A stretch of DNA of 64,000 bases, from positions 62,001 to 126,000 of the forward strand of contig WHVD01000123.1 in assembly GCA_015178975.1 (NCBI GenBank), in the 5' to 3' direction. The notes beneath the pieces are model-generated. The model had not been told where the DNA came from. It was given only the letters and a program-made list of their open reading frames with translations, and searched no databases. The translations under genes were made by a program, and so were the position numbers. This stretch comes from Hysterangium stoloniferum (lineage: Eukaryota; Basidiomycota; Agaricomycetes; Hysterangiales; Hysterangiaceae). This document shows positions 2,141 to 30,237 of the stretch, one piece after another; within the stretch, counting starts at the first letter, position 1; the number at the start of each line of letters is the position of its first letter.

Positions 2141-2950
2141 CAATAATGGATTTATATTGTCATTGTCACATTGCAGAGCCATGTCCACACATCAAGAGTA
2201 TGAGCCTGGGGCGAAACATTCCACTCGGCAAGACAGGTAATGATAAAGCTAGGTGTAAGCAAGTATTGCCTGACATAGGATTATGTGTGCACTTTATTAA
2301 TAGAAATTCTGATGGACACACCACAATCGAAGATATTTCAAGTTGACTGTTATGTACCTCAATAAAATCTACCCTGAGAACTCTGGTCTTACCTTACTCT
2401 TTGTCTTGTTCAGACAATCTAGAAAATTTAAGGTGTTTGATGTGGCAAAGGTGCATGAAGAAACCACGCTACTTGGCATTAACTTGACTAGACCATCATT
2501 GACCCGGTATGTGTGCAGTTTATTAATACAAATTCTGATGGACATGCCACAATTGAAGATATTCCAAGTTCGACCGTGACATACCTCAATAAAATCTACC
2601 CTGAGAACTCTGGTCTTACTTGATTCTTTGCTTGTTCAGACAATCTACAAAATTCAAGCCGTTTGATGTGGCAAAGGTGCATGAAGAAGCCATGCTGCTT
2701 GCCATTAACTTGGCTAGACCATCACTGACCCAGTTTCTTCTCATTGAAAGTTTTTATAAAATTAAACAAGAAGTGCGAAATCTCACCGGATAAAGTCTGG
2801 GGTTGATAGTGCCAACTTGAATACAGCACCCAGTGAGCATCGCTCTGGAGTGCATTTATATTATGCTTGGCAATGCCACTTTTGGAATGTCAGAAAAGCT
2901 GCATTTCAACTTTGATGCTCAATGATATTATACTATGCACTGCTGCGGTG
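2141..2950 (+). pseudogene. family 5-like block, + strand, decayed
   Basis: The + strand has two overlapping open stretches (2,146-2,346 and 2,343-2,579) whose translations match the minus-strand block at 31,664-32,009. Shared segments include KSMSLGRNIPLGKT and a stretch like LPDIGLCVHFIN.NSDGH. 2,750-2,950 matches the reverse complement of 31,480-31,650. Family 5 lies upstream of family 1 in the better units at 30,238-30,820 and 37,469-38,053. No full gene model could be built and the product is unrecognised. Confidence 0.45.
2280..2742 (+). repeat. two-unit tandem duplication (about 231 bp)
   Basis: 2,280-2,510 and 2,509-2,742 are imperfect tandem copies within the family 5-like block. 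Both contain the phrase ACCTCAATAAAATCTACC and end in a similar LTRPSLT / LARPSLT-coding stretch. It is a local duplication that is not seen in the copy near 31,700. Confidence 0.7.
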
Positions 2951-3123
2951 TTTGGAGCACTGCAAAATCCTTCCCAAGGAGATGAACTTTAATAAATGAA
3001 TTTTATTGTGCACTAAATCTTACTTAAAAGAGACATTTTGGGTCACACAAGAGTGGAACTAAAGGTGACTATTAGGTTGAATTTAGTTTGTAAGTAAATA
3101 TCACATCTAGTATTAATATTGAG
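2951..3123. other. AT-rich stretch with nothing recognised
   Basis: I see no open frame, repeat match or site here. It ends exactly where the left inverted arm begins. Confidence 0.5.
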
Positions 3124-3340
3124 CATGTCAAAATATACCCAAAAAATGACCTTTTATCAGCATTTTATGGCAGCATAAATGAGTCATTTTGAGACAACAT
3201 TAAAGAGAAATAATAGTTGAAAATTAGATAGACTTTTGCAAGTTAATAAAGATAACATTTTGTACTTGTTTTATGGAGTATTTAAATCCTATTCCTAAAT
3301 GTGTCCTTTAATGAAGTGTTAAAAAATAAATTTAATAATC

Positions 3341-3853
3341 AGATTTTAGAATACATCAAAATGAGCTATTTAGTACATGGATTTAAAACAGTACAAGATG
3401 TTTCCCAAATTTAGAATTTTGTGCAATCCAAAATTCATCGGGCTCTGTGCATGTCACTTTGGAAATGATCTTCGCATGAACTCACACAATAAAAGTTGCT
3501 TGTTACCAATTAGGTGGCAAGATGTGAGCGTGAATATAACAAAAAAATTACTGGCAGGTGACACTGTTTGTTAATTGTACCGATGTATCAAATATGCAGT
3601 GTGACGATTCACCGCAACATACCAATTGTACCAGATTTTAGAATACATCAAAATGAGTTATTTAGTACATGGATTTAAAATAGTACAAGATGTTTCCCAA
3701 ATTTAGAATTCTGTGCAATCCAAAATTCATCACACTCTGTGCGTGTCACTTTGGAGATGATCTTCGCACGAACTCACACAATAAAAGTTGCTTGTTACCA
3801 ATTGGGTGGCAAGATGTGAGTGTGAATATAACAAAAAAATTACTGGCAGGTAC
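3341..3853. repeat. internal direct duplication in left arm
   Basis: 3,341-3,561 and 3,632-3,853 are direct copies of about 221 bp, roughly 95 percent alike, separated by about 70 bp. The same pair is present in inverted form in the right arm (18,950-19,462). Each copy has a 65-codon open stretch, which is probably chance. Confidence 0.8.
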
Positions 3854-3895
3854 CAATTGTGACAAATCGTCATACCATGATATGTAATCAATATT

Positions 3896-4034
3896 TGTGT
3901 GTCATGGGGTGATGAATTGTGTGTCACAGGGTGATGAATTGTGTGTCACAGGGTGATGAATTGTGTCACAGGGTGATGAATTGTGTGTCACAGGGTGATG
4001 AATTGCGTGTCACAGGGTGACGAATTGCATGTCT
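3896..4034. repeat. 22-bp tandem array
   Basis: About six head-to-tail units of roughly GTGTCACAGGGTGATGAATT, one of them shorter. A mirror copy sits at 18,769-18,907 in the right arm. It has no spacers, so it is a minisatellite and not a CRISPR. Confidence 0.85.
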
Positions 4035-4553
4035 CCCAAGGAATAATCCTTCGGGGTGCAGTGACGATTTCAAAAGTGTCTTTTTTCTAAAGCCTTTGTC
4101 GAATGAATTTGTATTCCATGCCTCCAGGTACAAATGTCCCCAATCCTTATGTGTTCCTAGCGCCGGGTACCTCATTTCCCCCATAAGAACACGTAGCCAG
4201 TTAATTTCCGTGATTGCCACTTACCCATACGCAGGCCAGTCGGGAAGGAGGGTGTGAGGTATCAGCTTTATCTCATAATTTTCTCTTAATTTTCTTTGAA
4301 TTTATTAATATTTTCTCGAATTTATTGTATTTTTTATTATATGTTTATTGTGAAAAATAGGCCTTATTCCTTTTAACTTCGCATAAATAATAGCATATAT
4401 GAACTCATATTATGCTATTATATCTTAGTTAATTTATTATAATTTTTAACTAATTATTTATATTTTATTTACTTTAGTTATTACCTTTCGGCACTTGCTG
4501 CAGCCCAGTTTGCGCATTTTTGAAGTCATGTGACTTATTAGATAAGCCTCCGG

Positions 4554-5530
4554 TGTTGGGATGTCACAAAGGTCACGAGTGTGACTACCCGAGTCACACA
4601 AGTCACGAATGTGACTACCCGAGTCACACAAGTCACGAACGTGACTACCCGAGTCATTATTAGGTTCCGCCGACTCATCGTTTGCTTCCGTCCCCGGGAC
4701 CGCGGCCTTGAACCTTCATGTTCAAGCCAAAGCTTAGAACCCTTGTCTCAGAGAGGGGAATCACATGTTAAACAAAGGGTAAATAATGAGTAGAATATGA
4801 GGTCATTATGATCTCACTAATGACCTCATAAACTAAATAGTTAGCTAATCATTGAGTTATCAAAATGTATATAAGGAGGGCTAAGTTTCCAATAAAATCA
4901 TCTTATCACACACATATTTGCAGCACAGCACCAGCTTATCTAATCATCCTAAGGACAATAATAGCCTTAGTCTGATACACTCACTGCAAGCACCTACACT
5001 TGCAGCATCTTGAATCTTTGTCAGCAACTCTTGGACTTAGCTAATCATCTAAGTTCCCCTGCCTCACAGCTACCCTTTAGGCTTATTAATTAGATAATAA
5101 ACCTAATAAGTATCTAAGTATCTTTACTGAAATCCCTGCCAATACTAGATTACTCAAGGCCCAGCCCTAAGTTTATTGAATTAATCAAGTACAAGCACTC
5201 AGATAATCCAATACAATTTATTTTCTCTATTAATAAATTATTTAACACCTTGTTAAATAACTATTAATAGTTACAAATAAGCATACAAAAATACGAAGCT
5301 CTTATATCAAGTCTCTGCCAAGTTACTGCGCATATATTCAGCTTCCAGCCCCTATTCTCAAGGAATAGTTCTTGTATTTGCTAAAAGAGTCATACACAGT
5401 TCTATTGAACCTTTCAATAATCAAAATAAGCATTGATTTGAGTTGTTTAAGCTTCATAGCGCAGCTCATTAATCTATCAGTATTTAAATTACTGGACCTT
5501 TGCTTGTTTTATTGTTGAAGCTCTGTGACA
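4554..5530 (+). repeat. LTR-like block in left arm (977 bp)
   Basis: It begins TGTTGGGATGTCACA and ends CTCTGTGACA, giving the TG..CA ends expected of an LTR. A TATA box (TATATAAGG, 4,868-4,876) reads on the + strand toward the Gypsy core, which suits a 5' LTR. Three 30-bp GTCAC-rich repeats (about 4,571-4,660) lie upstream of the TATA box and look like promoter elements. The other copy (17,273-18,249) is inverted, which is not the normal LTR arrangement. I infer that it is an LTR; neither a primer-binding site nor a target duplication was found. Confidence 0.6.
4868..4876 (+). promoter_or_regulatory. TATA box in LTR-like block
   Basis: TATATAAGG, followed within about 30 bp by an AATAAAATC stretch and a CACACACA run. 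It is oriented toward the Gypsy core. The mirror copy in the right arm (17,927-17,935) points on the minus strand, also toward the core. Confidence 0.5.
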
Positions 5531-6945
5531 CTATAGCATCTATTGAGCTATCTAAGAGAATCCCCTGAATACATTACAGAGGGGAGACCCTCTTTTCCTG
5601 ATGATGTGCGTGTGGTAGAAGAAGGGGTTGCCGCAAGGTTGGCCCCAGTTGCGTCAGTGTGCATCCCACAGTAAAAACGTCTGAAGGGTAGTTGATTGAC
5701 ACGCGCAACCAACCTGCCTGTGAGAGCTGTGTCCCGAGAGGAAAGGGGAGAAGGCGGTTGTGGTGGGGGACTGCAAACAGGGTCAGCCAGAGTGGGGTCA
5801 ATGAGGGGCACATCATCCTGGACTTCAGCCCTCCACTTCCCTTTCGCTTTTTTGCTTAAGGGGGGAGGCTCCTTGGAGACTTCCATGGCTGGGGGAGGTT
5901 CCTTGAAGACCTCCATGACTGAGGGAGGCTCCTCGAGGACTTCCTGGGTTGGGTGATCAACATCCATCAATGTAATGTCAGGTTGATGAATGGGGCTCCC
6001 AAGGGAAATGCAAAGTGAGTAGGGAGAGGTGGGCAGGGGACTCCAAACTGGTAGGAGAATGTGGGGTGTGTCCAACACCATAGAGAACAATGGCATCGGG
6101 GTAGTGTGAGGGATGACAAGGGGGTCAGGTGATGGGTGAGACGGTGGAGTAGTCCATGGTGCAGGGCGGGGGGGGACAGGTGAGGGAGGTGGTATGAGGG
6201 AAGGTCCTGCGGAGGGGAGAGGTAATGGTATAGGGGTGAGGGGATGTGGGTAGCTCAAGACTTCCCAGCAGCTCTGAAAAGGGTGTGAAGCACTGCAGTG
6301 GGGGTGCAGAAGAGACAAATGGGGGTGGAGAGAGGTGGGTGGAGCTGGACGGCATTGCAGGGTTGGCTGGAGGATACCCCCTCCAAACCCTGACGGAAGT
6401 CAGTAAGTTTTGTCACTGGTTAGGGTCACTCGTAAAGAAGTGAACATTGTCAGGAAGTAGAAAACCTTTGTGGCAGTCAGCACCAAGGTACTTGTCGTCA
6501 TAGGCTGGGTAGCATGGTGGGTTGTCCTCCAAGTTGGATGAGAAATCGATGGGCCCCATCTGGTAGGTTCGTTCCTGGGGTCCATGTTGGGAGGGAGGTC
6601 TGGGAGGTAGTTCAACTCTGTCCCCATGTTGTAATGCAATGCTTTGCAGTTTGATCCTCCTTACTCTGTCCCAGTTGTAAAAGGTGATGCCATCCTTTCC
6701 CTTATCTCAATCCACATGGACTATATCTGCGCTACTCTGTTTATTTGACTCTCTTGTTATTTCCTTAAACACTCAAGCAGTCATTCAGAATCGCACTTCA
6801 AGGTCGATTCTCTTTCATTCATCTTAGCTTTCTATTCTACTTAAGATAGCTAATCCTTTCAACCATATTGAACTAGATGGTCAATATGTGTTTGGTCTGT
6901 ATTGAACTTAGATAGTCAATACATTGTCATGTCGTATCTAAATGG

Positions 6946-9530
6946 TTGATATTCTTCATATATAGAATGGTTAGAACTTCCACCACTCTTCACAGTGGTG
7001 ATCTGGGCCAGACTGCTCTTTCCCTACGAAGAAAATATCTATTAAAAGTAACTAATTCCTTTACAAACAATGACTATGGGCAAAGAACAGGCCGCAAAAC
7101 CTACAGCAGGATCAAGCAGTTCCTCCCTGCGATGAAGGCCTGCTAGTCTCAAACTGCCTGGAAACATCACAATGAGAAAGCCATCGCTAACTTCCCAAGA
7201 ACAAACCTTGGTCAGAGGCTCTCCCCGAACTGAGGATGAACCTGCAATGGTCAACCAATTAGGACCATCTACATGCCAGGAACCATCAGCAGCACCTGGG
7301 AAAGACCCTTCACCGCCCGCAATAATGACGTGACTCTGAATTTCCCACCACATCAAGTAATGCTTCAATGTGCGTACCATGGATTATTGGTTTACGACGA
7401 ACCTATGGATGACAAATGGGACATGTACTATGCCTCTCAGATTTTGGAGGAGGAAGTTATGGTGATTACACAGGACTATCAGACCAGATACCCCACCATG
7501 CCTCCCTCAATCGCGACCTGGTTAGGTAGATACCATGGGATCTTATCAGCTCAAACCCTTTTCACGTGATCAAGGACTCTGGGAGAGGTCACCCAACTGA
7601 TCCCGAGTGGCCGGAGGAGCTCACAATCCCAATGGAGAAAGGAAGAATGGCAATAAAAAGGGAATTATTTATCCAACTCGTGGACTTACTTAAAGTACAT
7701 GACAATACATTGCAGATTTTGCACATATTGATCAGACGTCTCCACTCTGTCCCCAAAGTCAACTATCAATACATATATGTACATTCGGATTTTAGAACGT
7801 TCCCTCTATGAAAGATCACCTGAGATATCCTTTGCCTATTTCAGCCTACAGTCTAGGCTGTTACACGTCCAGCAAAAATGTGATAAGATGATGATGGAGC
7901 TATTGAACAAATTTGATGTGACAATGCAAATACCCCCTTCTCCGGTTTTGACAACAGACTCATTTATACGAGATCTCAAGGGTTCCCCCGATACTTGTTT
8001 TCTACATTCAGTCAATTGCCCACTGATCCTAGAAGGCTTTCCAATGGATATGAGAATCAAATTAATGGAACATCTACAGGAAAAGAATATACCCATTAAA
8101 CTTTCCCTTCATCAGCCACAACCACTTCACCTCCTTAGCATGACTGAATTGGAAATGGAAGCCTTGAAGGAATGATGAGTGACTCCTAATGAAGAGACTC
8201 CATGTGCCAGAGTAACCTTTGACACTCCCTCTATGACCACAAATCCTTTTGACAACTCCCACCCACCAACATCTAGACAGACCAGCCACCAATAAAGTCA
8301 ACCATTCTTCTCAAACACATTCATTGAAGGAATAGCAGGTCAAGTATTCAGTCAAGGATCACAAGACCCAGACAAAACTCACTGGCCCCTGCCTATCACA
8401 TCTAATCCTTTCATTCCACCTGGAGGAGAGCCCAGCAACTTGTCTGGGAGTTCGGATAGCTCCTATAGTAACGGGCACCAGGGATGTGGGGGGCAAACCC
8501 CCAAAACTCCTAGACCCTCAGACCCATCTGGCTCCCAAAGTGGCAACTTACATAAGAAGAAAGTGCTCACCATCAACATGAATGACATCAAGATCAAATG
8601 GTCCAACCTTCCTGAATACAATGGAAGTCATTCCAAAGCCTTGGAGTACATCCTTGACATCATGAGCCTTTCAGAGATCTCAGACTTGATGAGTGCCCTG
8701 TTGGGTGTCACTCTGCCCAGATGACTCACAGGTAACACAAATATTTGGTGGAGCACCCTAGACTGTGAGCATCGCACTGAATTCAGTCAATCTCACAGAT
8801 CTTTTCTTTGGGGAATCGTTGAGGGTTTACTAGGGACCAGGTGGCATGAATCTCTTGTGATCAAATGGGAAGAGATGAGGTTTCATCAAGCTCATCATGA
8901 TTGTGAAACTCTGATGCAGTACATACAATGCCAAATCAAGTTGTATTGCTTTCTTTATGGTTTTCACCAGGATCGGAGGGAGGAAATGCACTGTTTGATT
9001 TTGACCTTACCCATGGAATGGCTTTATTTATTGCAAGGACAACCCATTGACAACATAATGGGGCTAAAAACTTATGCCAATAACTTACAGAAGCTCTCAT
9101 TAACACCTGGAATCAGACCCACCGACAGCATTACCAGTTTCAGAAGCCCAGAGTCATGATCACTGAGCAGGAAGAGTTGGACCCCTGGCATGAGGAAGAA
9201 CACTCTAGGGGAATCAACTCCACCAACTGTGGTCACGTCTTTCTCAGCAAAACTGAAGATAAAACTGTCCCTAGGAGATCTAACATGAAACAAGGTAAGA
9301 AACAAGGCAAGTTCTTTTTCAAACGAAGTGACAAGAAAATCATTGCTAAACCCCCGAAGGAGTGCTGGATTTGTGGGAGTTTGGAGCATTTCAAGATCGA
9401 CTGCTGTCATGCAGGTAGGATGTCGCATTATGTCTCTAATAACAAATGCTCCACACAGAACCCAACTGAGGAGGTGGAGGATCAGAGGGCTTATGAAATG
9501 GTTTATGGATTTATGGATTAAGCATACAGG
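6946..9530 (+). mobile_element. Gypsy-1 gag region (fossil)
   Basis: Several open stretches of gag-like composition lead to a CX2CX4HX4C zinc knuckle (CWICGSLEHFKIDC, about 9,363-9,404) preceded by a Lys-rich stretch. This is the nucleocapsid motif of LTR retrotransposons. The region is broken. It is immediately followed by an AT-rich insert. Confidence 0.75.
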
Positions 9531-9664
9531 GACAAGTACATAACGTTGATGAGGAATCAATTTTCATTTCTGTCTACCTTCTTCAATCAGAGGATGACAT
9601 CATTTTAGATGCGAGTTCACCTTCAAATGAGAATGAAGCATCACAAGTTTATGTCTCCATAGGA

Positions 9665-10325
9665 GGCTGTCTGTAATCATTATAATACCAGATGTTTACT
9701 AATAAAAGTAATATTGCTACAAAACTCCATCTTTAAATAGTGGTATATTTTCTAAGAGTATTATATTGTTAACCATCAACCATAAGAAACAATTCTTCAT
9801 ATTACATTCTAAACAATTTAGAGTCAATTAATAGAACCTGTTGTATATAGTTTTCCAATTTATGTAAATACTTGCTAATACTTTTGTTGTTAATTTGTTT
9901 TTTAAAAACTAAACTGTAGTTATTTCCTAGTAAAATATATGAGATGTCATTGGAAATTTTTCATCCTATGGCCTTCTTTATTAAGTAAAATCACCTATAT
10001 ATTTTGTGTATGTTGAATCAAGTAGAAATCTGTTCAGATTGACAGATCTATTCTGAGGTAATACATATGTATTTAGAGGTGCCAATAATATACATATGCA
10101 TGGAATGGACTATCTAAAGGTATCTATTTTTTAAAAGTATTAGTGTTTCAAACTACTAATTTTTTTTATTGTCTACTCATGTCCAGAAAGATTCTTTAGT
10201 TTGTAATGTATGAGAGAGTTTAAAACTTTTTGAAAGTTTTAAAAACCAAATTATGTTGGAATCACATCCCAGATGTTTAAATGACCTTTAGAGTATATTA
10301 GAATTTGGTATACTTAATAGTTTTC
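9665..10325. repeat. AT-rich insert in Gypsy-1
   Basis: About 660 bp, markedly more AT-rich than the coding sequence on either side, with no open frame. A short direct repeat (CCAGATGTTTA) lies near both ends (about 9,690 and 10,271). It may be a small non-autonomous element. I could not assign it to a family. Confidence 0.5.
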
Positions 10326-10499
10326 AGATATCCTCCATATCAGACTGCAATTTCCTCGAGAAAGGAGACTGGCTGGACACTCATCATCAGAACCAGAAAG
10401 GTCTGACTGAGATGGAAGCCTTATTGCAATCTGAACCTCCTACCATTGAGGAAATCATTGACAAGGAAGTATCTGTTAACTGATCTAAAGAAATAAGTC

Positions 10500-13300
10500 A
10501 GACCTATGTACATTATAGAAGACCCCTCTGAGTTAGAGGGATCAGAGGAGGAGAACTTCCCCTTCGACCCAGGACAGTTACCCACCCTAATTCCTTATGA
10601 GGATTCAGACTCTGAAGCAGATGACTCCATTCTGAATGCTACACCCAAGGTACTTTACGGTAGATGTGTCAGAAGGGACATCAAACTGGTGGCAAAAAAG
10701 GAAAGCAAGAGACCCAAGGTCCAATACCCTCAATCCAGTTGGCTTATGAAGGAGGATTCGCCTATCATTTACCGCAGAAGGGATCCCCCCAGTGGATACT
10801 CCAGCATACGATCTCAGCATTACATGTCTATGGATGCGTAGGGAACTCAGAAGCCTCTAATCCTATTAAAATCAGGCTGGACGCTGGGGCTGACCTTTCC
10901 CTAATTTCAGAGGATTTCTATAAGGAACTAGAAGACCACCCCAAGCTCAAACAAGGACTCAAGTTGTGCCTCGTTCAGCTTACTGGCAATGCTAAAGTCT
11001 TAGGATACATCAATGTCCCCATTTACCTTGAAGACGAAACCAGTATGCTCCTTACATTTACCACCGAAACATACATTGTCTGAGGTATGACAGTGCCAAT
11101 TCTTCTTAGGGAGGACTTTCACATGAACTATGAAATCAGGACACTATGAGACCAGCCACTGGGCTCCAGATTGATTCTACCAGGGAGGGCGGGGTCTATC
11201 CCAGCCAGTTCCTCCAAAGAGCCACAGCCTTTAGCCTTCTCGATTAGCAAGATTCCCCTTGAGGAATGAACCAACGACTCACCTGAATTGACTTCCAAAC
11301 CAGACAAAGGAGTGCATACTGAAAGAGTCGCATGAGCCCTACAGGATTGTACTATAGAACCAGAATCAGCTCAATTAGTACCAATCTATGTCGGGGATCT
11401 TATCCGTGACCAATGGATAGTCGAGGGAGTTGTCTTACAGAATGATGATGGAAGTATACTAGCTGCTGCCACCACTGCCATCTCTAGGGAATGCGCCGTG
11501 ATACCTCTCGCTAATCCCTCTCTGACACCATGAATCATTAGGCAAGGGGAAACCATTGGATTAATTCACAATGCAAACAAATGGGCTCAGATGCCTAGAT
11601 CTTCAACCGAGAAGGAATCAATGCAGTCAATGGCAACCAAGATCACTCACCTCATAGAGAGCCTATCCAGAATAGAAGAGGAGGGTGTCCTTAACCCTCG
11701 ACCTTCCAGACAGTCCCTAGAACGGGAACTTACAGATGATTTTGACCCAGCAGGCCCTAAAGCATCAGAGGTTGCCACCATGGAAACATTTCATTCAGAA
11801 GACTTACATAAGTTGGTTAACTTAGGACCTGACATTCCTACAGACATCTCCTCTCACTTGGAGTCGGTCTTGACTAAGAATGCCCAAGCCTTTGGAGTAG
11901 ACGGGCATTTGGGACAAGTAGATGTTAAAGTCAGTGTCCCATTGAAAGAAGGCATGCAACCTATTTTGATGCCAATGTTTCCAACTTCCCTGGCCAATTG
12001 GATGGTCATTGATGAACAAATGGATACCTGGTTTCAACAGGGAGTAATCAAACTGTTGAATAGTCCTTGGGGGGCACCAGCCTTTGTAGTCTATTGCAAC
12101 AGGAAACTGCAAGTAGTGATTGACTATAGGAAGTTGAAAAGCCCAACAGTTCCCAATGAATTTCCATTGCCACATCAGTCTGAATCATGCAAATGCTTTC
12201 AGGATCCAACATCCTATCTTCCTCTGATGTGTTAGCTGGCTTTACCCAACTCAAAATGTTAGAAGAAGACAAACTGAAGACCACCTTCAGATCCCACCGA
12301 GGACTGTGGCAATTCAGGAGAATGCCCTTTGGACTCTGTAATGGACCTTCTATATTCCAGAGAGTTATGCAAAACATACTTGCACCTTACTTATGGATAT
12401 TCTGCCTAGTTTATATTGATGACATTGTGATCTTTTCTAAGACATGGGACGATCATTTAGAGAATTTAGAGCAGGTCCTACAAGCCATAATTGCAGTGGG
12501 AATCACCCTCTCGCCCAAAAGGTGCTACATTGGGTATAACTCGATTTTATTACTAGGACATAAGGTGTCTAGACTCAGTTTTTTGACCCATCAAGAAAAG
12601 GTCGTTCCATACTAGAACTAGCTATGCCTACCAAGATAGCAGATCTTCAACATTTCCTTGGGATAGTTCTGTACTTCTCCACTTACATACCATTTTATTC
12701 CTGGACAGTTGCTCTGCTCTTCAACCTCTTAAAGAAAGGAGTTCATTGGACTTGGGATTCTGAACACACCAGAGCTTTTAAAGATATCAAAGTTGTGCTG
12801 AGCTCTGCCCCAGTACTCGGACACCCCGTGAGTGGCATGCCTTATTGGCTATACATGGACACTTTGAACTTTGCATTGGGATGTTGTCTACAACAAATAC
12901 AGAAAATGACACTCAAGGATCTAAAAGACACCAAAATCTACACCCAAGCAAGATCAGCCTTCAATCAATCTCGAGACGTGCCCATTTTCATCACCTGTTA
13001 TAAAACCAAGGAGCCAGAATTCACTTGGACAGATTCCTGGGCCTCAGATTTTGATGACACCAGTGTCACTGTTGAGCATGTCATTGCCTATTGGAGCTGT
13101 ACACTCAAGAAAGCAGAATGTAACTACTCTGCCACAGAGTGAGAGGCGTTAGCTGCCAAGGAGGGACTAGTCCATTTCCAGCCCTTTATTGAAGGAGAAC
13201 ATATACTTCTGATCACTGACCATGCGGCATTACAATGGGCCAGATCTTACAAGAACACCAATCATCGACTAGCTGCATGGGGGGCAGTATATGCTGCATA
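10500..13300 (+). mobile_element. Gypsy-1 protease, reverse transcriptase and RNase H region (fossil)
   Basis: A retroviral-type aspartic protease motif (LDAGADLSLIS) lies near 10,876. The reverse transcriptase has PFGLCNGPSIFQ followed by YIDD at 12,412-12,423. RNase H-like sequence follows, with LLITDHAALQWA near 13,205. The order PR-RT-RH-IN is that of Ty3/Gypsy. The region is broken. Confidence 0.85.
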
Positions 13301-13619
13301 CCCCAGTCTGGAAATCCTACATCGAGTGGGACGAATACACAGCAATGTTAACCCATTGTCTAGACTCCCTGGAGTACCTGACTGCACTAGTCCTGGAAGA
13401 GACGACCTCTTACCAATCGTAGCAGATTCTTACAATTGGAATGACAATAAGACATTACGGGAGAACAAACCAGTGGAAAGGGCCGTCTTTCTCACTCATC
13501 ACGAGTTAGTTGAACCAATTGGAATGATGGAAGAGGTCCCCCAAATGAAATGGGATCTGCACAACCTCCCCAGAAACAATGAAATTGACGAGGCAAACTT
13601 TACTCTCTCGAATCCCAAT

Positions 13620-15135
13620 CGCTTATAGAAATTGATGAGAATTACACTAAGGAACTTTGCGATGGATATCAGAAAGATCCCACCTTCAGAAGTCATTACA
13701 CCGCCGATCCCATTTCCCCAAATGTGGTAGCTACCCCTTCTCACTATTTCATCAGAAAGAACAAGTTACTGTTTTTTCGAGATTCAGACTGGAAAAGTCG
13801 AATCTGTGTACCTAACAGTATGACATCTACCATACTCAAATTGATACACGACAATCCCTTCAAAGGAGCTCATGCAGGTGGTCACAGACTTTTTCAGCTA
13901 ATGAAGGACCAATTTTTCTGGCCGAGGATGTACTGTAGCAGGACTGTGTGGCATATGCTTGCAGCTGTGACATATGCCAGAAAAATAAGGTTGATCATTC
14001 TGCTTGACAAGGAGCTCTTTGACCTGCAGAAGTACCCTTAAGGCTGTTTGAAGTTGTCTCAATGGACCTGATTACTGGATTGCCACCTTCTGCAGAAGGT
14101 GCTTATGCCGCCATCTTTGTCACTGTGGATAAACTCACATGTTTCTTAATTTGTGAGCCCATGACCTCGCATTTATCTGCAGAAGCATTTGCATGCATTT
14201 TTGTGAATAACGCAGCTGCTCCCTTTGGCTTACCCTCAAGGATAATCTGGCATTGAGACAAGAGATGGACCTGTAGGTTCTGGAGAGAGGTCTGTAAGGT
14301 ATACAGAAGCACCCTCGTGGTATCCTCATCCCATCATCCTCGAACTGATGGTCAAATGGAGAACACCAATGCTATTGTTGAGCAAATGCTCAGAGCGTAC
14401 TGTGCTTCTTCAAAAGGGGAATGGTCTAAATGGACTCAAGTGGTGGCCCATACCTACAATTTGACAGTTCAGAGTTCAACGAGCTATGCACTGGCCTTTT
14501 TGCTGATGGGATACTTACTGAGAGGAATGTCTCACTGCCTAGGAGGGGATGACCCTGTGGTTCCCAGAGAATTGTTGGATAGCCCCTTGGCCGACCAATG
14601 GATCTTAGAACTAGAGAACCATCGACAGGTGGTGTGAGATTTGATTGCGTGAGCACAAGAAAGGCAAGCCCACAGCTACAATAAAAAAAGGAGACTGGTG
14701 GAAGATAACTCGGAAGGAGATTATGTTCTAATCAATACTCATTCTCTTGAGCTCATTGAAGCCAAGGACCTGGGAGGAAACTCATACAAAGACGGATAGG
14801 ACCGTTTGAAGTCTTGGAGAAGATCAATCCTCAAGTCTTTTGACTTGGCATTCCCTTGGAATATCAAATACATCCTGTGATCAACTGAGGCCACCTTAAA
14901 AAGTACCATTTCTCCCCCAAGGAATTCGGATCAAGGGCACTACTCAAAAACCCTCAGGAACTAGACTGTAATGACAAGGAGTACAAAGTAGAGACTATAG
15001 TGGGACACAAAAAGCATCAAAATTGACTCCTTTTTCAAGTTCGATGGAAAGGATATGGACTGGAAGAGGACACTTGGTTAAATGGCAATGACCTTCGTAA
15101 TGCCCCCACTCTTCTCAGAGCTTACAAAACTATCT
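13620..15135 (+). mobile_element. Gypsy-1 integrase and chromodomain region (fossil)
   Basis: The integrase zinc-binding segment is recognisable around 13,845-13,990 (LIHDNPFKGAHAGGH). The catalytic core begins near 14,062 (MDLITGLPPSAEGAYAAIFV). A chromodomain-like end (FQVRWKGYGLEEDTWL) is encoded near 15,030-15,085, which places the element among the chromoviruses. Chromodomains are known to steer integration toward heterochromatin, which would fit the repeat-rich setting. The region is broken. Confidence 0.85.
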
Positions 15136-15279
15136 ATTGAATCTAACAATTATTTCATCTTTTCATGATGAGAACACTGTTTATTTCCTTTTAACTCTAC
15201 CCCCCCTTATTCATTCCCCTCAGCCTTTCACCTCAATAACCAAGCAGAGCTTAAAATTAATATAAAATATGTAAATTTG

Positions 15280-17255
15280 CTAAAGAAATTTTATCCCCCT
15301 TTCTCTTCCCTCCACATCAATCTCACGAGCCAGTACACTATGTCACAGGAACAACAAACCAAACCCAGGCTTCCCAACTTCAAAAGATACCACAACCTCA
15401 AGCTATTGATACTTCTACCACATCGTCTCATACTGAAAATGTTGAGCACAGTACAGGTAATTCTGGGATGTCATCATTGATGCACTCCATTTCACAGGAC
15501 AACATGACAGGAATCCCCACCAGTTTGGGGAGTGGGACTGTCTTTACTCCTTATACTCCTCTCCCCAGACCCCGACTCCCCAACTTCAAAAAGATCCCTC
15601 AGCCCAAAGTGATGGTCCCTCCTTCCCCACTACCTTGAACAGAGATTGTTGAGCACTTGAGGGAGGCCTCTTCGTCCACATATCCTACACAGATGGACCC
15701 CATTCAAACAACTGCACCTTGGTCCACTGACACTTGGGGGGCTCCCACAGGAACATGGAGTGCAACCCTCCCCCCCCCCCCCCCGGTAGCATATTCCCTT
15801 CCACCGAAGAGGAGATCAGGAAAAAATGTCAGTCTGGTGCATTATCTGTGTGGGTTCAGGAGGAATTAAAAATGCTCAAGAGGAAGAGGAGGGAGGAGTA
15901 CTTAGAAGGACAGCAAAAGATGTATGCTAGGGATAAAGTCCCCTCTAAGCAGACACGGCAGGAATGCAGGAGAATGGAAGGAAGCAACAACCCTTCAGCC
16001 ATTGCTCCCCCCCTGGGCCATAAGTGGATGGATTTTGCTGAGATGGACTGCAGCAATGGTGGCACACCATGCATTCAGAGCGTGGGGCAGAAAAGCAAGA
16101 AGGGAAAGGATGGCATCACCTTTTACAACTGGGACAGAGTAAGGAGGATCAAACTGCAAAGCATTGCATTACAACATGGGGACAGAGTTGAACTACCTCC
16201 CAGACCTCCCTCCCAACATGGACCCCAGGAACGAACCTACCAGATGGGGCCCATCGATTTCTCATCCAACTTGGAGGACAACCCACCATGCTACCCAGCC
16301 TATGACGACAAGTACCTTGGTGCTGACTGCCACAAAGGTTTTCTACTTCCTGACAATGTTCACTTCTTTACGAGTGACCCTAACCAGTGACAAAACTTAC
16401 TGACTTCCGTCAGGGTTTGGAGGGGGTATCCTCCAGCCAACCCTGCAATGCCGTCCAGCTCCACCCACCTCTCTCCACCCCCATTTGTCTCTTCTGCACC
16501 CCCACTGCAGTGCTTCACACCCTTTTCAGAGCTGCTGGGAAGTCTTGAGCTACCCACATCCCCTCACCCCTATACCATTACCTCTCCCCTCCGCAGGACC
16601 TTCCCTCATACCACCTCCCTCACCTGTCCCCCCCCGCCCTGCACCATGGACTACTCCACCGTCTCACCCATCACCTGACCCCCTTGTCATCCCTCACACT
16701 ACCCCGATGCCATTGTTCTCTATGGTGTTGGACACACCCCACATTCTCCTACCAGTTTGGAGTCCCCTGCCCACCTCTCCCTACTCACTTTGCATTTCCC
16801 TTGGGAGCCCCATTCATCAACCTGACATTACATTGATGGATGTTGATCACCCAACCCAGGAAGTCCTCGAGGAGCCTCCCTCAGTCATGGAGGTCTTCAA
16901 GGAACCTCCCCCAGCCATGGAAGTCTCCAAGGAGCCTCCCCCCTTAAGCAAAAAAGCGAAAGGGAAGTGGAGGGCTGAAGTCCAGGATGATGTGCCCCTC
17001 ATTGACCCCACTCTGGCTGACCCTGTTTGCAGTCCCCCACCACAACCGCCTTCTCCCCTTTCCTCTCGGGACACAGCTCTCACAGGCAGGTTGGTTGCGC
17101 GTGTCAATCAACTACCCTTCAGACGTTTTTACTGTGGGATGCACACTGACGCAACTGGGGCCAACCTTGCGGCAACCCCTTCTTCTACCACACGCACATC
17201 ATCAGGAAAAGAGGGTCTCCCCTCTGTAATGTATTCAGGGGATTCTCTTAGATAG
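15280..17255 (+). mobile_element. Gypsy-1 third, proline-rich reading region (fossil)
   Basis: Downstream of the chromodomain, open stretches on the + strand (notably 15,734-16,390 and 16,485-17,255) encode charged and then Pro/Ser-rich sequence, ending 17 bp before the LTR-like block. The first of these crosses the core-arm junction at 16,100 without interruption, which suggests the right arm is the original context. I do not recognise the product. A run of about 16 C residues lies near 15,769. Confidence 0.55.
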
Positions 17256-19679
17256 CTCAATAGATGCTATAGTGTCACAGAGCTTCAACAATAAAACAAG
17301 CAAAGGTCCAGTAATTTAAATACTGATAGATTAATGAGCTGCGCTATGAAGCTTAAACAACTCAAATCAATGCTTATTTTGATTATTGAAAGGTTCAATA
17401 GAACTGTGTATGACTCTTTTAGCAAATACAAGAACTATTCCTTGAGAATAGGGGCTGGAAGCTGAATATATGCGCAGTAACTTGGCAGAGACTTGATATA
17501 AGAGCTTCGTATTTTTGTATGCTTATTTGTAACTATTAATAGTTATTTAACAAGGTGTTAAATAATTTATTAATAGAGAAAATAAATTGTATTGGATTAT
17601 CTGAGTGCTTGTACTTGATTAATTCAATAAACTTAGGGCTGGGCCTTGAGTAATCTAGTATTGGCAGGGATTTCAGTAAAGATACTTAGATACTTATTAG
17701 GTTTATTATCTAATTAATAAGCCTAAAGGGTAGCTGTGAGGCAGGGGAACTTAGATGATTAGCTAAGTCCAAGAGTTGCTGACAAAGATTCAAGATGCTG
17801 CAAGTGTAGGTGCTTGCAGTGAGTGTATCAGACTAAGGCTATTATTGTCCTTAGGATGATTAGATAAGCTGGTGCTGTGCTGCAAATATGTGTGTGATAA
17901 GATGATTTTATTGGAAACTTAGCCCTCCTTATATACATTTTGATAACTCAATGATTAGCTAACTATTTAGTTTATGAGGTCATTAGTGAGATCATAATGA
18001 CCTCATATTCTACTCATTATTTACCCTTTGTTTAACATGTGATTCCCCTCTCTGAGACAAGGGTTCTAAGCTTTGGCTTGAACATGAAGGTTCAAGGCCG
18101 CGGTCCCGGGGACGGAAGCAAACGATGAGTCGGCGGAACCTAATAATGACTCGGGTAGTCACGTTCGTGACTTGTGTGACTCGGGTAGTCACATTCGTGA
18201 CTTGTGTGACTCGGGTAGTCACACTCGTGACCTTTGTGACATCCCAACACCGGAGGCTTATCTAATAAGTCACATGACTTCAAAAATGCGCAAACTGGGC
18301 TGCAGCAAGTGCCGAAAGGTAATAACTAAAGTAAATAAAATATAAATAATTAGTTAAAAATTATAATAAATTAACTAAGATATAATAGCATAATATGAGT
18401 TCATATATGCTATTATTTATGCGAAGTTAAAAGGAATAAGGCCTATTTTTCACAATAAACATATAATAAAAAATACAATAAATTCGAGAAAATATTAATA
18501 AATTCAAAGAAAATTAAGAGAAAATTATGAGATAAAGCTGATACCTCACACCCTCCTTCCCGACTGGCCTGCGTATGGGTAAGTGGCAATCACGGAAATT
18601 AACTGGCTACGTGTTCTTATGGGGGAAATGAGGTACCCGGCGCTAGGAACACATAAGGATTGGGGACATTTGTACCTGGAGGCATGGAATACAAATTCAT
18701 TCGACAAAGGCTTTAGAAAAAAGACACTTTTGAAATCGTCACTGCACCCCGAAGGATTATTCCTTGGGAGACATGCAATTCGTCACCCTGTGACACGCAA
18801 TTCATCACCCTGTGACACACAATTCATCACCCTGTGACACAATTCATCACCCTGTGACACACAATTCATCACCCTGTGACACACAATTCATCACCCCATG
18901 ACACACAAATATTGATTACATATCATGGTATGACGATTTGTCACAATTGGTACCTGCCAGTAATTTTTTTGTTATATTCACACTCACATCTTGCCACCCA
19001 ATTGGTAACAAGCAACTTTTATTGTGTGAGTTCGTGCGAAGATCATCTCCAAAGTGACACGCACAGAGTGTGATGAATTTTGGATTGCACAGAATTCTAA
19101 ATTTGGGAAACATCTTGTACTATTTTAAATCCATGTACTAAATAACTCATTTTGATGTATTCTAAAATCTGGTACAATTGGTATGTTGCGGTGAATCGTC
19201 ACACTGCATATTTGATACATCGGTACAATTAACAAACAGTGTCACCTGCCAGTAATTTTTTTGTTATATTCACGCTCACATCTTGCCACCTAATTGGTAA
19301 CAAGCAACTTTTATTGTGTGAGTTCATGCGAAGATCATTTCCAAAGCGACATGCACAGAGCCCGATGAATTTTGGATTGCACAAAATTCTAAATTTGGGA
19401 AACATCTTGTACTGTTTTAAATCCATGTACTAAATAGCTCATTTTGATGTATTCTAAAATCTGATTATTAAATTTATTTTTTAACACTTCATTAAAGGAC
19501 ACATTTAGGAATAGGATTTAAATACTCCATAAAACAAGTACAAAATGTTATCTTTATTAACTTGCAAAAGTCTATCTAATTTTCAACTATTATTTCTCTT
19601 TAATGTTGTCTCAAAATGACTCATTTATGCCACCATAAAATGCTGATAAAAGATCATTTTTTGGGTATATTTTGACATG
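16100..19679. repeat. right arm of 3,580-bp inverted repeat
   Basis: Reverse complement of 3,124-6,703. It includes the LTR-like block (17,273-18,249), the 30-bp and 22-bp tandem arrays and the 221-bp duplication in mirror order. Immediately outside it, at 19,680, the sequence joins a family block that also starts at about 39,899 (GTTATGTTCCGGGGC), so the arm ends within a known repeat. Confidence 0.93.
17273..18249 (-). repeat. LTR-like block in right arm (977 bp)
   Basis: Inverted copy of 4,554-5,530. On the + strand it runs TGTCACAGAGC..CATCCCAACA. Its TATA box reads on the minus strand, back into the element. Confidence 0.6.
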
Positions 19680-21300
19680 GTTATGTTCCGGGGCTTTTCT
19701 TCCAGAAAATGGAGACATAAGTCGAATTCGTCAATGCTACCCACACATCAGTGAAAGGTGTGGCAACTACGCATAGGAAAGAACAGGTGACGACAATTAA
19801 TGTTCAAGAGTCTGACGTATCTTTTGTAGAAGAGTTCCTTAATATTTGATTGACTCAAATGATTGTTTCGTTACTCCTCTAACTGAAATAATTCAAACAT
19901 GGCAATTGGAATGGAATCCAGTCAACCGAATGCACTCAATTGTGATGCTTACTGAAATTCTGAGAGCCATAGTGTAATCTCTCAACGATATTGGAGTAGG
20001 GAACGTTTAAAAGTGTCCCTGCTGACTCTGTTCCACAAAAGGTCAAGTGGCCTAGTTACACACCTTGATATAGTTATAGACAATGCAAGATTTGAATGAC
20101 TCACTCCAGAAATTTATTGAATCATCTCCACCTCGTTTGTGGTACGGCGTATTGATAAAATCCTCCAATAACCGGTCCGAAGAATCAAGGGATGATTAGG
20201 ACAATAGGGTCAGTGACACGGGACGGAAGGCGTCAATCCTCTTTTATTCGCACGGAGTGGTCGCAACATAGTCATTTTCAATTCTGGGTCAACCACTGAC
20301 TTGCTGCTATATTCTTGAGACCTATCCTTACCACCTCTTGACGGCACAGCGGATCATTTATTGACAATTTCTCATGAGTGACTGAGTCTACTATTGGTTC
20401 CATTAATTGATATGTTGTCATTGGATGTAGATCATGGCCATGCCAAGTTCCTAAATGGAACGAATGAAGATACTCCCCTGCAAATTGTGAATAACCCTGA
20501 GGATAATTCTTCAATGGTTCCCGGTGAGTCCTTCATACCTCCTCTCGAGATACAACTGAGAAGTTGTCCATCGGAATTAGGTGCATCCTCTCATCACTTG
20601 TGCGCAATGTCCTGATTGGCGAGCCAAATAGCATACATTTCTCCTGAGCTTCTCTTGTCGTCGTATAGTGGTGGTGGGGGGGTAATGGACTCATCTGTCT
20701 CGCATGTTAGCGGTGACTCCACAAAATCATCGCAATGAAAAAGACATTACACTACATACCGAGAGGTGTTTGAGGAAATATTGTTGGTATTTCACACGAG
20801 ATATGTTTGGATGAATCAAAATCCTTTGGTAAGGTTGGAGACGGGGAGGCACCACGGGGAAGGTCTTGAGTAGAGTCTTCGCAGCCTGGAGTTGACTGGC
20901 CTTTGCCGATAGAGCTGATCGATTTCCAGGTGACATTTAAAAATGACATTTTGGATATCAGCAGGTATAGATGGTGGGCAGCAGTAATTGGAAGTTTAAG
21001 TCGAAGATGACACAGAATAGTGTTGTACCAGCGTTGATTCTACATGAAGTATAGAAGTGGGCAACGACTTGCTGACCTTCTTGTACAACGAGCTTGACAC
21101 AGAGGTAAATGAAATTCGCTGTCGTTGTTGGACTGTAGGAGATGTCGAAGGTGCATTTTATAGACCGTTTGAAGCCATCTTAGAACTACTCCGGCGGAGG
21201 GCCTGAACGTCCGAACGTGGAGTGCCACGGCGGTAGCCGATGCCGTATCTTCGCTTATTACAAAATGAAATTCTGATAGAGAACGGGCGATGTTTATTAT
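19680..21300. repeat. 1.6-kb direct repeat, copy 1
   Basis: This segment is repeated in direct orientation at 39,896-41,486 with about 95 percent identity, and the homology continues beyond the solo LTR at 21,301. It contains a candidate gene (family 6) on the minus strand and a short conserved frame on the + strand. Here the + strand frame matching 41,272-41,466 is interrupted. Confidence 0.85.
20278..20949 (-). pseudogene. family 6 candidate gene, copy 1
   Basis: The minus strand starts MSFLNVTWKSISSIGKGQ at 20,949 and is open for 65 codons. A GTATGT donor follows directly, suggesting an intron. Open stretches continue to 20,278. The N-terminal 65 residues are about 90 percent conserved in the copy ending at 41,164. 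I could not find a consistent complete model, so it may be decayed. Antisense frames (20,394-20,615 +) are also conserved, which makes the coding strand uncertain. Product unrecognised. Confidence 0.35.
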
Positions 21301-21686: not shown

Positions 21687-21903
21687 ATGATAAATGTTGA
21701 TGCAACCTCATCAAAGTTGGTGTGCAGCGGTGACTTGACTAAAATGTGATGATATAATCACATTTGACGCATCTCTATCTGACCAATAAATGCCGGGGCA
21801 GACCAAAGCCAAGAATGTCATAAGCTGGGTATTCTTTTCTGTTCCCGTTCTCAGACTTCGTGTAGTTTTATTAAAAAGACTTTAGTTTGTTTAAGAATTA
21901 ATC

Positions 21904-22410
21904 GTGCAACGCTACTTTCCCAACTCGTTCGTATGCGTTACAACAGGACAGGAATTATCAAATATAAATCCCAAATGGACTCCATCAGACTCAAATTGTT
22001 GGAGGCTGGTCATGCCATCACGAATGCTGACTACCTCAGCCTATTTATGAGTATGCTGCCAGAGGATTTTGATATAATGTCAACGACAATCGATTATGAC
22101 GTTGATACTGTCGAAGAAGTAGTCAATAAACTGCGTCAAGTTGAGATTCGAAAGGAAATACGTCCAGGCTATGGCGAAGGTTCCGCATTTTGTACCCAGA
22201 GGGGTGAAGGTTCCACGTTTCACCCCCAGAGGGGAACTAGTACGCAGCGTGGAGCGTATCGTAATAGGGGTTGTGGTCATGCCGCTATTCCACGAGGAAC
22301 ACATATCAGGAGGAGTACTCCACAATCTGGTTGTTTTGAATGCGGGGATTTGTCGCATTGGGCAAGTAATTGTCCTAAAAGAAAGCAGCGATATGCTCAG
22401 CGATCAGAAA
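21904..22410 (+). mobile_element. Copia gag fragment (fossil)
   Basis: The + strand encodes a Ty1/Copia-type gag piece (ADYLSLFMSMLPEDFD) and a CX2CX4HX4C zinc knuckle (CFECGDLSHWASNC, about 22,333-22,374). It sits where the parallel copy (41,720-41,852) has only a short spacer between families 1 and 2, and joins family 1 sequence directly at about 22,411. A fragment only, with no LTRs attached. Confidence 0.75.
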
Positions 22411-22422
22411 ATTGAGGTATCC

Positions 22423-25033: not shown

Positions 25034-25153
25034 GAACTTCTTACATGATAGGCGCTGGCCTTCGTATCAAAAGAAAAAAGATTAGTAATTGTGTCCAATT
25101 GATGCAAGACCTTTGTCAGGGTAGCCATGTTCCTCCAACACTGATATGGGGGA

Positions 25154-26190
25154 CTAATTAGACCCTACCGACACACGAGTGGAAGGAGTGGCGACCACAC
25201 AAAGGAAAGAACGTGCTGTCAAATCTAAACCCTCAAACAGCTCCCTGATGAATTGGTCATGGGTCGAGCCGCGCATGGCGTTACAATGTGGAAGGAGGGA
25301 AACGAGAATGACGATGGTATTGACGCTGCGCACTGTGGTACACGCAGATTCAGGCTCGGAAGATCCAGCTATCAGTTTCAGAGTCAATGTGATTATGCGC
25401 TTACCACACACAAGGAGAGCCCAACTAGGACTCGTGTGGGTCAGAATGAGACTGGTAGGACAATTTCATGGGCGGATGTCAGACGGTGCTATGAGGTAAA
25501 AAATTGTGACCGTACCTTGCGATGGGCCCAATGAGCGAAGAAACCACATTCAGCCGGTTGATGTGATCGGTGAGAAGCGTGCTGTCGTCGAAGAATATTT
25601 TCAAGGAGTAAACACTCCAATACAGTGAGTCCAACGCGTCGAAATCAAGATGAAGTGTCAATGACGCTATATGCATGGGTATGTCGTCCAATACAACCCT
25701 CAATACAGCGCCAGCGATATCTCGAAACCATGCATCTTGTTGGATGCAACACACGAGAAGCTCTATAGGATATTCATACAATCTAACTCGTTGTGTCTGA
25801 TATTCTCTGTTATGGTTTTGGTGGGAAGGATGAAATGGTGTGATGGCACGACGCACGGTTGTAACCAGAATTCAAGGCAACCTCTGATCGCCGTGAGCTC
25901 CTTTACAGATAGTGGACGCATGTGGCAGATCGCTTCCACGATGTGAATAAGGCGGAAAAGGGGGAAGCGCTGATCAAATCCTGAGACATAATGAAATTCT
26001 GAGAAATAACGGGCGATGTGTATGATAAATGTTGATGCAACCTCATCAAAGTTGGTGTGCAGCGGTGACTTGACTAAAACGTTTGTAAAGTGATGACGTA
26101 ATCCACGGTGACGCGTCTCTATCTACCAACGGACGCCGGGGCAGTAAAAGAAGGTCGCAGCCAAGAATGTCATAAGCTTCATAGTGTGAC
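25154..26190 (-). pseudogene. family 2, copy B
   Basis: The third-exon segment (RIITLTLKLIAGSSEPESACTT..TRVSVGSN, ending at 25,154) and the second-exon segment (LLVC..DAWFRDIAGAVL, about 25,480-25,830) are open. Intron 1 keeps the GTGCGT..AACAG pattern of copy D. The first-exon region near 26,100 does not stay open, so this copy looks decayed at its N-terminus. It lies 3' of family 1 copy B with a TATA-containing spacer between them. Confidence 0.65.
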
Positions 26191-26323
26191 CTTTGCCGCT
26201 CCTGTAAGAAAATATCGGGAAACTCTCTAAAACCACTGTCGCTCTTCTCCGAATTTGAGGTGGGTATATAGGTCTACGACTCACATGTGAGTATGTCCCG
26301 TGTATTAAATGATTGAGGTATAC

Positions 26324-27024
26324 CTACCTCGCTAAATCAGCACTGTCTTGAACTAGTCTTCCCAGTTTTGGCAGCGTAAGATGCTTGTGTAGAAACTTGC
26401 CAAAGGCACCACCGTCTCGTACCAAACGGGTGATTTCCCGGTATATTGTCAGCTTTGCGATCAGCGAAGCTGTCTTAGCACCGTGAAGGACTTTCATCCC
26501 AACCCTTTCCAAACCGACTCCACAGTAATACCCGGGGCCAATGTCAATACTTGACATTGTCCCCTGACTCCGCGAGATCATTCCCCAGTCATCGGCATGA
26601 CTGCAATAGGGGCTGAGGTTGGATGCCGTGTTGGTGGACATCTTAACAACATTCGGTGGGTCATGGCAGCCCGTTTCTCCTTGACACTGAATACGCAGCA
26701 TGTGTCACATCTCACATGGAAATAGCATTATACTTTGCTCACCCACTCGTCAACCCAAATCTCTATATGGTTTTCAGACAGCTGTATGTGTTGCCTACCA
26801 TCTGGGGCCCGATAACATAAATCATGGCCGGGTTCGTTACAACCCCATCGTTCTCGAAGCTTCTCCCTGAACATTTCTCTCATCCCTTTAACGATCTCGT
26901 CCCGTTGCTCTGAACTCAATACACCAGGGGAAACTAAGGGTGGGAGTTCCTCAATGTCTTCAAGCTCGATCTCAGCCGTTGCCGAATCGTGATTCCCCCG
27001 AGTCGTCTCGTTGGAAGTAGACAT
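26324..27024 (-). CDS. family 1, copy B: two-exon gene, 214 aa, unrecognised
   Basis: Exon 1 is 27,024-26,743 (94 codons from MSTSNETTRG). The intron is 26,687-26,742 (56 bp, GTGAGC..TTCAG, phase 0). Exon 2 is 26,686-26,324 (120 codons plus stop). The protein starts acidic (LEDIEELPPL), then has a Cys/His-rich segment C62-x4-H67-x2-C70-Y71, a VDEW motif, C95 and C101-H102, and a basic, helical-looking C-terminus (KLGRLVQDSADLAR). Copy C is open over exactly the same model despite clear divergence, which argues for real coding. I do not know the function. The C..PGH..CY..H..L..I..W pattern is loosely like a short module in uncharacterised agaricomycete proteins; this is from memory and weak. 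Confidence 0.75.
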
Positions 27025-27043
27025 AGGTGGGTAGCAGTCTCAC

Positions 27044-27256
27044 CTACACTAGAAGGGGGTGCCTTTCTTTTATGCCGCCACCAGTCGGAGAGTTAATTCC
27101 ATGAAGGCACAGCGTTATGGCCGTACTTACACGGGATACACAGCATTTCATTCCTGCCTTCGTCCACAAGGTTCCCTCACCTTCCTTGAACCTTATAGGC
27201 TCCACTGTAATGAGGTAACTACTTCTTACGCCTTCCACTGAAGGCTCACACAGCAT
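27044..27256 (-). pseudogene. family 5 fragment upstream of family 1 copy B
   Basis: Open for 70 codons (MLCEPSVEGVRSSYLITVEP..). A GTAAGT-type donor follows GMKCCVS, so the true exon probably ends there. It is separated from the family 1 start by under 20 bp beyond a possible acceptor, but an in-frame stop precedes the family 1 ATG, so I keep them as separate genes. The product is unrecognised. Confidence 0.45.
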
Positions 27257-27389
27257 AGAATGTAACTCCAGTGAACAAAAATGAAAGCAGTACGTGAAAT
27301 GTCGGGATAGCCAGTAAAATACATTGTCGTGGCGTATAGTGTGACCCTAGCGACTGAAACATTCAAACACAACACCAACGAGATGTCTT

Positions 27390-28190: not shown

Positions 28191-28382
28191 CGTTCTTACA
28201 TAGGTTCAAATCATATAGCTTTATACCATCCCCAACCACGGTAAAGAAACGTTATTGGATTCCTCCTGGTTTGGTTGAGTTGTGTCGGCATTATCGAAGA
28301 GAAATGATTAGAAGGTGTGACCAATTGATGGTGCAAGACCGGTGTCGGGCCAACCATGTTTCTCCAACACTGATATGAGGCT

Positions 28383-29396: not shown

Positions 29397-29455
29397 GCGT
29401 GAAAATATCGGGAAACGCTTTAAAACTTCCCTGGCTCTTCTCCGAATTTGAGGCG

Positions 29456-29463
29456 GGTATATA
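29456..29463 (-). promoter_or_regulatory. TATA box between family 1 and family 2, copy C
   Basis: A TATATA motif in a context conserved in all units (near 26,257, 29,457, 36,709, 41,807 and, altered, 60,655). It sits about 60 bp upstream of the family 2 start codon on the minus strand. Confidence 0.5.
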
Positions 29464-29516
29464 GGTCTACGAGTCAGATATGAATATTTCCAGTGTATTC
29501 AATGATTGAGGTATCC

Positions 29517-30218: not shown

Positions 30219-30237
30219 TAGTGGGTAGCAGTCTCAC

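Follow-up and report, generated by a model that had tools for sequence, protein, structure and literature searches.

Several described systems bear on the locus reported here. Fungal EnSpm families of the CMCT group were presented in 2025 with CAC..GTG termini, 3-bp target site duplications (TSDs) and similarity to Plavaka, whereas the Plavaka families of the same paper have other termini, either TGT..ACA or CATCA..TGATG (PMC12730594). Galileo, a foldback-like element of the P superfamily, is described as having long terminal inverted repeats (TIRs) and much structural variation, its defective copies being traced to aborted gap repair, slippage, template switching and ectopic recombination (PMC4168063). 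In Pack-TIR elements, the interior of a TIR transposon is refilled by template switching, and that study gives microhomology of 1-36 bp (median 2) at at least one breakpoint in 67.6% of cases (PMC8277862). Here, we analysed 64,000 nucleotides of Hysterangium stoloniferum DNA (assembly GCA_015178975.1, contig WHVD01000123.1, positions 62,001 to 126,000, forward strand; hereafter the window, to which all plain coordinates refer), where a degraded Ty3/Gypsy retrotransposon lies between two inverted arms of 3.58 kb that are formed outwardly by the ends of a CACTA-type DNA transposon. The locus adds a further case to a known kind of process, with ordinary parts in an unusual arrangement and a foldback-like form, and one arm is probably a recent, repair-made copy of the other, produced either by repair primed from the TIR or by a duplication involving two template switches. 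It resembles the EnSpm/CACTA elements of the CMCT group, which includes Plavaka, in its CAC..GTG termini, its 3-bp TSD and the transposase pieces of its relatives, which match tnp2 and, weakly, Plavaka (PMC12730594), and differs from them in its 3.58-kb inverted arms and in an interior unlike that of its sister copy, C63. It differs from Galileo in its superfamily and in being one rearranged copy instead of a family with long TIRs, and from Pack-TIR elements in that its own opposite arm forms part of the filler and so creates the inverted repeat. Literature searches listed no publication that pointed to this locus by its title or abstract opening.

Self-comparison of the window aligned 3124-6703 with 19679-16100 in inverted orientation over 3,580 bp, without gaps and at 99.89% identity, confirming the equal length and few mismatches that the first-pass annotation, made from the letters of the window, had reported. 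This pairing is far above chance level, and the assembled sequence does contain the mirrored 3.6-kb arms. The arms differ at four positions (3150, 3171, 3172 and 3456), all confined to the outer 333 of the 3,580 bp (P ~7e-5 if uniform, a value that assumes uniform and independent differences, 3171-3172 possibly being one event), and no difference was found over the inner 3,247 bp (3457-6703). The changes at 3171, 3172 and 3456 were of the CA/TG/CG type and that at 3150 lay outside CpG. Methylation-type mutation was considered as the cause of the arm differences; it could have produced those at 3171, 3172 and 3456 but leaves the clustering unexplained, as the 62 CpG of the inner 3,247 bp were unchanged. 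The filler, the solo long terminal repeat (LTR) and the 3' segment of the Gypsy element that make up the inner arms (described below) are identical on both sides; therefore, either one arm was copied from the other or both came from one source, after the solo LTR had been inserted.

The outer arms were identified by sequence comparison as the ends of an EnSpm/CACTA-type DNA transposon family, because of their termini, the 3-bp TSDs, the 22-bp subterminal repeats, the transposase matches in relatives and the fit to the families of PMC12730594. The genome (111 Mb, 554 contigs) was searched by scoring and listing the best candidates, about 40 per search, so that a feature said to be found only in the window is so among the matches listed. 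The outermost 577 bp of the arm gave 44 genome matches (40 of 87 candidates scored), many of them inverted pairs 2.8 to 29 kb apart. From 29 fetched stretches, 23 ends besides those of the window were compared and 22 of them typed; the end in C516 was left untyped, though its match length looks A-type (see below), and C192 and C76 (interrupted), the second end of C552 and the more diverged C52, C441, C442, C46 and C101 were excluded from the comparison, the fetched set also omitting further family matches such as C514, C62 and C90. Family termini read CACTG..CAGTG, and in the aligned flanks the terminus begins CACTGCTG, which corresponds to 2938 in the window. At that position, and in most of the relatives read, the terminus is CACTGCTGCGGTG; the window copy lacks its right terminus. 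Moreover, the stretch 2951-3123, beyond the arm edge, is present whole or in part in family copies. Position 3124, proposed as an outer element boundary, is thus internal to the transposon, whose left terminus is 2938, and 19679, proposed as the other, is a truncation point: the outer TIR part 2951-3123 had no second match on contig C28 (41 matches listed). A 3-bp TSD could be read by eye in 8 of the 9 two-ended relatives, the ninth being unread on one side. In the window, the motif ATG at 2935-2937 stands as the left TSD, with the same flank and ATG in C63 and a matching CAT on the other side of C63, the right partner being lost in the window copy.

All nine two-ended copies had one end of each of two types, A, with an extra segment of 72 bp, and B, without it. 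The left TIR of the window (2938-3631, plus strand) is of the A type, consisting of the common TIR and the A-marking 72 bp (3560-3631), and its terminus CACTGCTGCGGTG was placed against other copies. It is followed by a second copy of the TIR segment 3340-3559, at 3632-3851 on the plus strand, which is B-like at sites 3389 and 3419; no other fetched copy showed such an A/B hybrid. Next comes a subterminal array of six copies of a 22-bp unit (3895-4027, plus strand; right-arm counterpart at 18776-18908), and similar arrays are present in relatives. Ten open reading frames (ORFs) from relatives were scanned: that of C475 matched Transposase_21/tnp2 (PF02992, E 3.4e-11), those of C63 and C323 gave a weak Plavaka match (PF18759, ~3e-4, below the cut-off), and the other seven yielded DDE_Tnp_4 in C126, RNase_H in C84 and five without a match. 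The tnp2-type transposase present in the family was not found in the window copy, from which the conserved interior common to the relatives is missing. Arm alignments in the nine two-ended relatives spanned 0.5-1.1 kb at 85-97%, repeat arrays included, as seen in comparisons covering about 1.4 kb (or half the element) inward from each end. Long arms in many copies, as expected of a foldback family, were thus not encountered, and long identical arms were found in the window copy alone. Some copy pairs share flanks, L009/L024 (C334, C179) and L016/L017 (C7), and some insertions have therefore been duplicated together with their surroundings.

The junctions of the two arms proved to be of different kinds. 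All of the 39 other matches listed for 15500-16500 pass through 16099/16100, while for 6300-7300 each of the 40 non-window matches listed extends at most 4 bases across 6703|6704, and the right arm is therefore taken as native on its inner side. At the outer end of this arm, 19679|19680 was crossed by none of 39 other matches listed; there the right end lacks its outer ~186 bp and abuts a truncated copy of another repeat (19680-21297, plus strand, like 39892-41495), which lies upstream of a Copia-type gag ORF (21783-22412). Judged by these matches and by the left terminus at 2938, the right arm is native inside and broken outside and the left arm native outside and chimeric inside, and the arms have their sharp 3.58-kb outline because the two truncations overlap. 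The overlap at 6703|6704 was 1 bp and none was clear at 19679|19680, where an apparent 4-bp microhomology was discarded since its fourth base differs from the copy at 39892.

These junctions speak to two further explanations. That the structure is an assembly or consensus artefact of a repeat-rich region would agree with its being single-copy, with near-identical arms lying within repeats, and mis-mapped reads during polishing could have brought family alleles into one arm. Misjoins induced by repeats, however, are expected in long shared sequence, not at junctions with overlaps of 0-1 bp, and a hairpin read left unsplit would not contain a single-copy spacer of 9.4 kb, so that we consider an artefact unlikely. 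It is still less probable, and in our view quite improbable, that two inverted copies were separately inserted or duplicated, each was truncated, and the two overlap over 3.58 kb. Such a history would account for one truncated side per arm, and pairs sharing flanks do exist (C334/C179, C7a/C7b, window/C63), but it requires more deletions and lacks a donor for the second copy, because the junction 5618|5619 within the left arm was crossed by none of the 39 non-window matches listed.

Between the arms, the broken Gypsy body occupies 6704-16099 (plus strand), nearly all of it being covered by relatives C90 and C168. A Pfam scan of 27 plus-strand stop-to-stop pieces of the element found RVT_1, RNase H, an H2C2 integrase zinc finger and a weak rve (2.7e-4, below the cut-off), in the order reverse transcriptase-RNase H-integrase and with the reading frame broken, which upholds the earlier description of the core as a degraded Gypsy element. 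The chromodomain claimed for it gave no match in the 27 pieces, although with a broken frame this is no proof of absence. Tyrosine recombinase, a DIRS trait, likewise had no Pfam match in these pieces, in which integrase was present instead. What is left of the 5' LTR (6704-6994, plus strand) lacks its first part, the LTR extending upstream of 6704 in C90 and C74, and the native 3' part (16100-17184, plus strand) is truncated at 17184 and lacks the 3' LTR; C420 goes further, and Gypsy LTR sequence recurs in it 614 bp beyond the stop equivalent to 17184. The window Gypsy (6704-17184) is therefore read as an ordinary LTR element cut at both ends, because the LTR extends upstream in C90 and recurs downstream in C420. 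Position 6704 had been considered as a natural 5' end and was rejected, the apparent starts of many copies there reflecting the switch of the query from arm to Gypsy and C90 extending upstream; 17184 was rejected as a natural end because the C420 sequence continues past it.

The window Gypsy thus shares with Ty3/Gypsy elements the reverse transcriptase, RNase H and integrase domains of its core and a 5' LTR remnant, and differs from them in being truncated at both ends and not responsible for the arms. That it represents a separate type of Gypsy whose terminal repeats are inverted rather than direct, as its layout in the window alone might suggest, has a negligible probability in our judgement: the arms hold the ends of another transposon class, ordinary LTR sequence is present in the Gypsy relatives, and the matches listed included no other copy arranged in this way. 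Nor do the arms stand in place of LTRs, as had been proposed, given the partial 5' LTR at 6704-6994 and the LTR seen 5' of the Gypsy in C90 and 3' of it in C420 (no single relative being read at both ends). The description of a Gypsy bounded by inverted arms is likewise not supported, since the arms are made up of CACTA-type ends, filler, a solo LTR and 1.1 kb from the 3' part of the Gypsy, and break inside the Gypsy LTR (6704) and 3' region (17184).

The origin of each arm could be approached through C63, a two-ended member at ~130.6-144.3 kb with the same flank, ATG target and terminus as the left end of the window copy. C63 has two normal, unlike ends, of which the A end corresponds by position to the window left end; its TIR differs by an LTR-like insertion. 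The two copies have their ends in common and their interiors not, and C63, as a related normal copy, offers a reference for mapping the copied tract. Over its outer 120 bp, the right arm was identical to the C63 B end; no other of the 39 further matches reached 100%, and the left arm stood at 98%. Site 3150 carries the A allele in the left arm, as in 12 of 12 A ends, and the B allele in the right arm, as in 9 of 10 B ends; across the four differing sites, the alleles of the right arm are found in 9-13 of the 22 typed ends. From 3311 inward, variants rare in the family are common to both arms, and over 3201-3559 the arms share such variants with one difference between them. When each end was left out in turn and placed by mean distance, 19 of 22 were assigned correctly, the three misses all being B ends; A/B calls by distance are weak, and the typing therefore rests on the 72-bp segment and single sites.

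Our tentative preference, put at somewhat less than an even chance on the sequence evidence, is that break repair used the right end as template for the left, with synthesis beginning within the shared TIR and extending inward for ~3.5 kb to 6703. The ancestor would have been a CACTA-type member whose ends were unlike, of A type on the left and B type on the right, a state that C63 retains. Short filler and a Gypsy fragment truncated on both sides would have taken the place of its own interior, with the solo LTR within the filler; filler and a doubly cut Gypsy fit a history of such repairs. A later break in the left part would have let the left TIR pair with the inverted right TIR of the same element, and copying would have started within the TIR, between 3172 and ~3311, and proceeded inward to 6703, where the new end would have been joined to the Gypsy at 6704 by end-joining with a 1-bp overlap, leaving near-identical arms. 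In a separate event, the right end would have lost its outer ~186 bp through the junction to the other repeat at 19680. The outermost ends would then still be native A and B, and the left arm inward of ~3172-3311 a copy of the right arm. The sequence shows the anatomy, the family, the A and B ends, the sister locus and which junctions are chimeric; that copying took place, where it started, which way it ran and how the events were ordered we infer from this pattern, the evidence for the start being few sites. More generally, and with similar reserve, a CACTA-type transposon may here have been turned into a foldback element by one-ended repair, in which one TIR serves as primer for copying from the opposite one and brings several kb of interior, including parts of a nested retrotransposon, into mirror position, the outermost ends keeping their own identities and C63 serving as the before-picture of this insertion.

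Several observations weigh against this TIR-primed copying. Both arms are A-like at 3340-3456 (mean distance ~3.7 to A and 8.8 to B ends), and the right arm, too, carries the A-only 72 bp, which is unexpected in a native B end; because of these two features an earlier transfer from A to B, into the right end, must be assumed. Seven other rows, the C63 A end among them, match the outer 120 bp of the right arm at 99%, so that the exact match to the C63 B end rests on about one base, and 3150 is the sole good separator of A and B in the outer stretch. The left arm is unlike the C63 A end at 3171-3172, the changes at 3171, 3172 and 3456 could be recurrent deamination, and the mismatch at 3456 falls inside the supposed copied tract. 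In addition, the right end has to be lost in an event of its own, and the junctions share little sequence, with 1 bp of overlap at 6703|6704 and no clear overlap at 19679|19680.

A close rival is an inverted duplication of the whole segment by fold-back or microhomology-mediated template switching, possible with a likelihood of roughly one in three in our estimate. Here, the copying would have exited at 6703, re-entered in reverse 9.4 kb further on, continued to 3124 and jumped to the repeat at 19680, and the outer differences would have arisen later, by mutation or by conversion from family members. Both chimeric junctions would then stem from one event and the A-like 3340-3631 would appear in both arms without an extra step, a simpler explanation of this stretch than TIR-primed copying gives; moreover, the four alleles occur elsewhere in the family and three of them are CA/TG/CG changes. 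It accounts less well, however, for the outer differences, as it has to suppose later changes that were restricted to the outer 333 bp and yielded there the B allele at 3150 and the identity of the right arm to the C63 B end. Of the explanations that the first-pass annotation had listed, fold-back or template-switch duplication and gene conversion between arms thus come close to those best supported here and an assembly artefact is unlikely, while a new composite mobile unit finds no support in the 0.5-1.1 kb arm alignments of the nine two-ended relatives and in chimeric junctions found only in the window among the matches listed. No other copy with the same inverted-arm layout, for which it had suggested a search, appeared among those matches.

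Near-identical inverted arms can arise around a retrotransposon without a new element class, and the locus, if its structure is confirmed, would offer an example of how the long TIRs of DNA transposons may arise. Arms of such length may also promote inversions.

Inward of the 22-bp array, the left arm continues with patchwork filler (4034-4252, plus strand), in which 4034-4108 gave eight partial matches (87-94%), no complete source for it being found, and 4109-4227 one close match (C27:224828-224947, 98%). The solo LTR of another retrotransposon follows at 4253-5578, with a perfect 5-bp TSD, GAGGG, at 4248-4252 and 5579-5583. Its genome copies reach 99%, and on C553 and C215 they occur as same-strand pairs with a spacing of 6.75 kb. 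It had been considered as the LTR of the Gypsy itself, and was rejected on account of this pair spacing, its own TSD and the different sequence of the Gypsy LTR. The short segment 5584-5618 matched only the arms of the window itself, no other source being found, and 5619-6703 (minus strand) is the left-arm copy of the Gypsy 3' part, 1,085 bp in reverse complement of 16100-17184, which ends at the chimeric 6703|6704. In the right arm, the part outside the Gypsy (17185-19679, minus strand) comprises the filler, the solo LTR (17225-18550), the 22-bp array and the TIR, and is truncated at 19679. The Gypsy body carries, in addition, an insertion of ~663 bp (9671-10333) with an imperfect 15-bp target duplication, which is absent in the relatives with flanking alignments, C90 and C168 among them, and is perhaps a fragment of a short or long interspersed nuclear element.

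Other repeats were noted in the window and the genome. A tandem array of ~41 copies of a 16-bp unit lies at 51867-52502. An imperfect palindrome of ~300 bp (57741-58045) matches its own reverse complement at 82%, and part of it matches the LTR-like insertion of C63 (C63:144050-144236) at 89%. Large diverged direct repeats of several kb (25067-31278 and 35487-38523, 87-89%) are found within a nest of repeats. Five 5.8S ribosomal RNA matches (C516, C15, two in C90, and C246), of which the one in C516 looks basidiomycete together with its ITS, scored 128 to 155 bits and may be diverged copies of ribosomal DNA.

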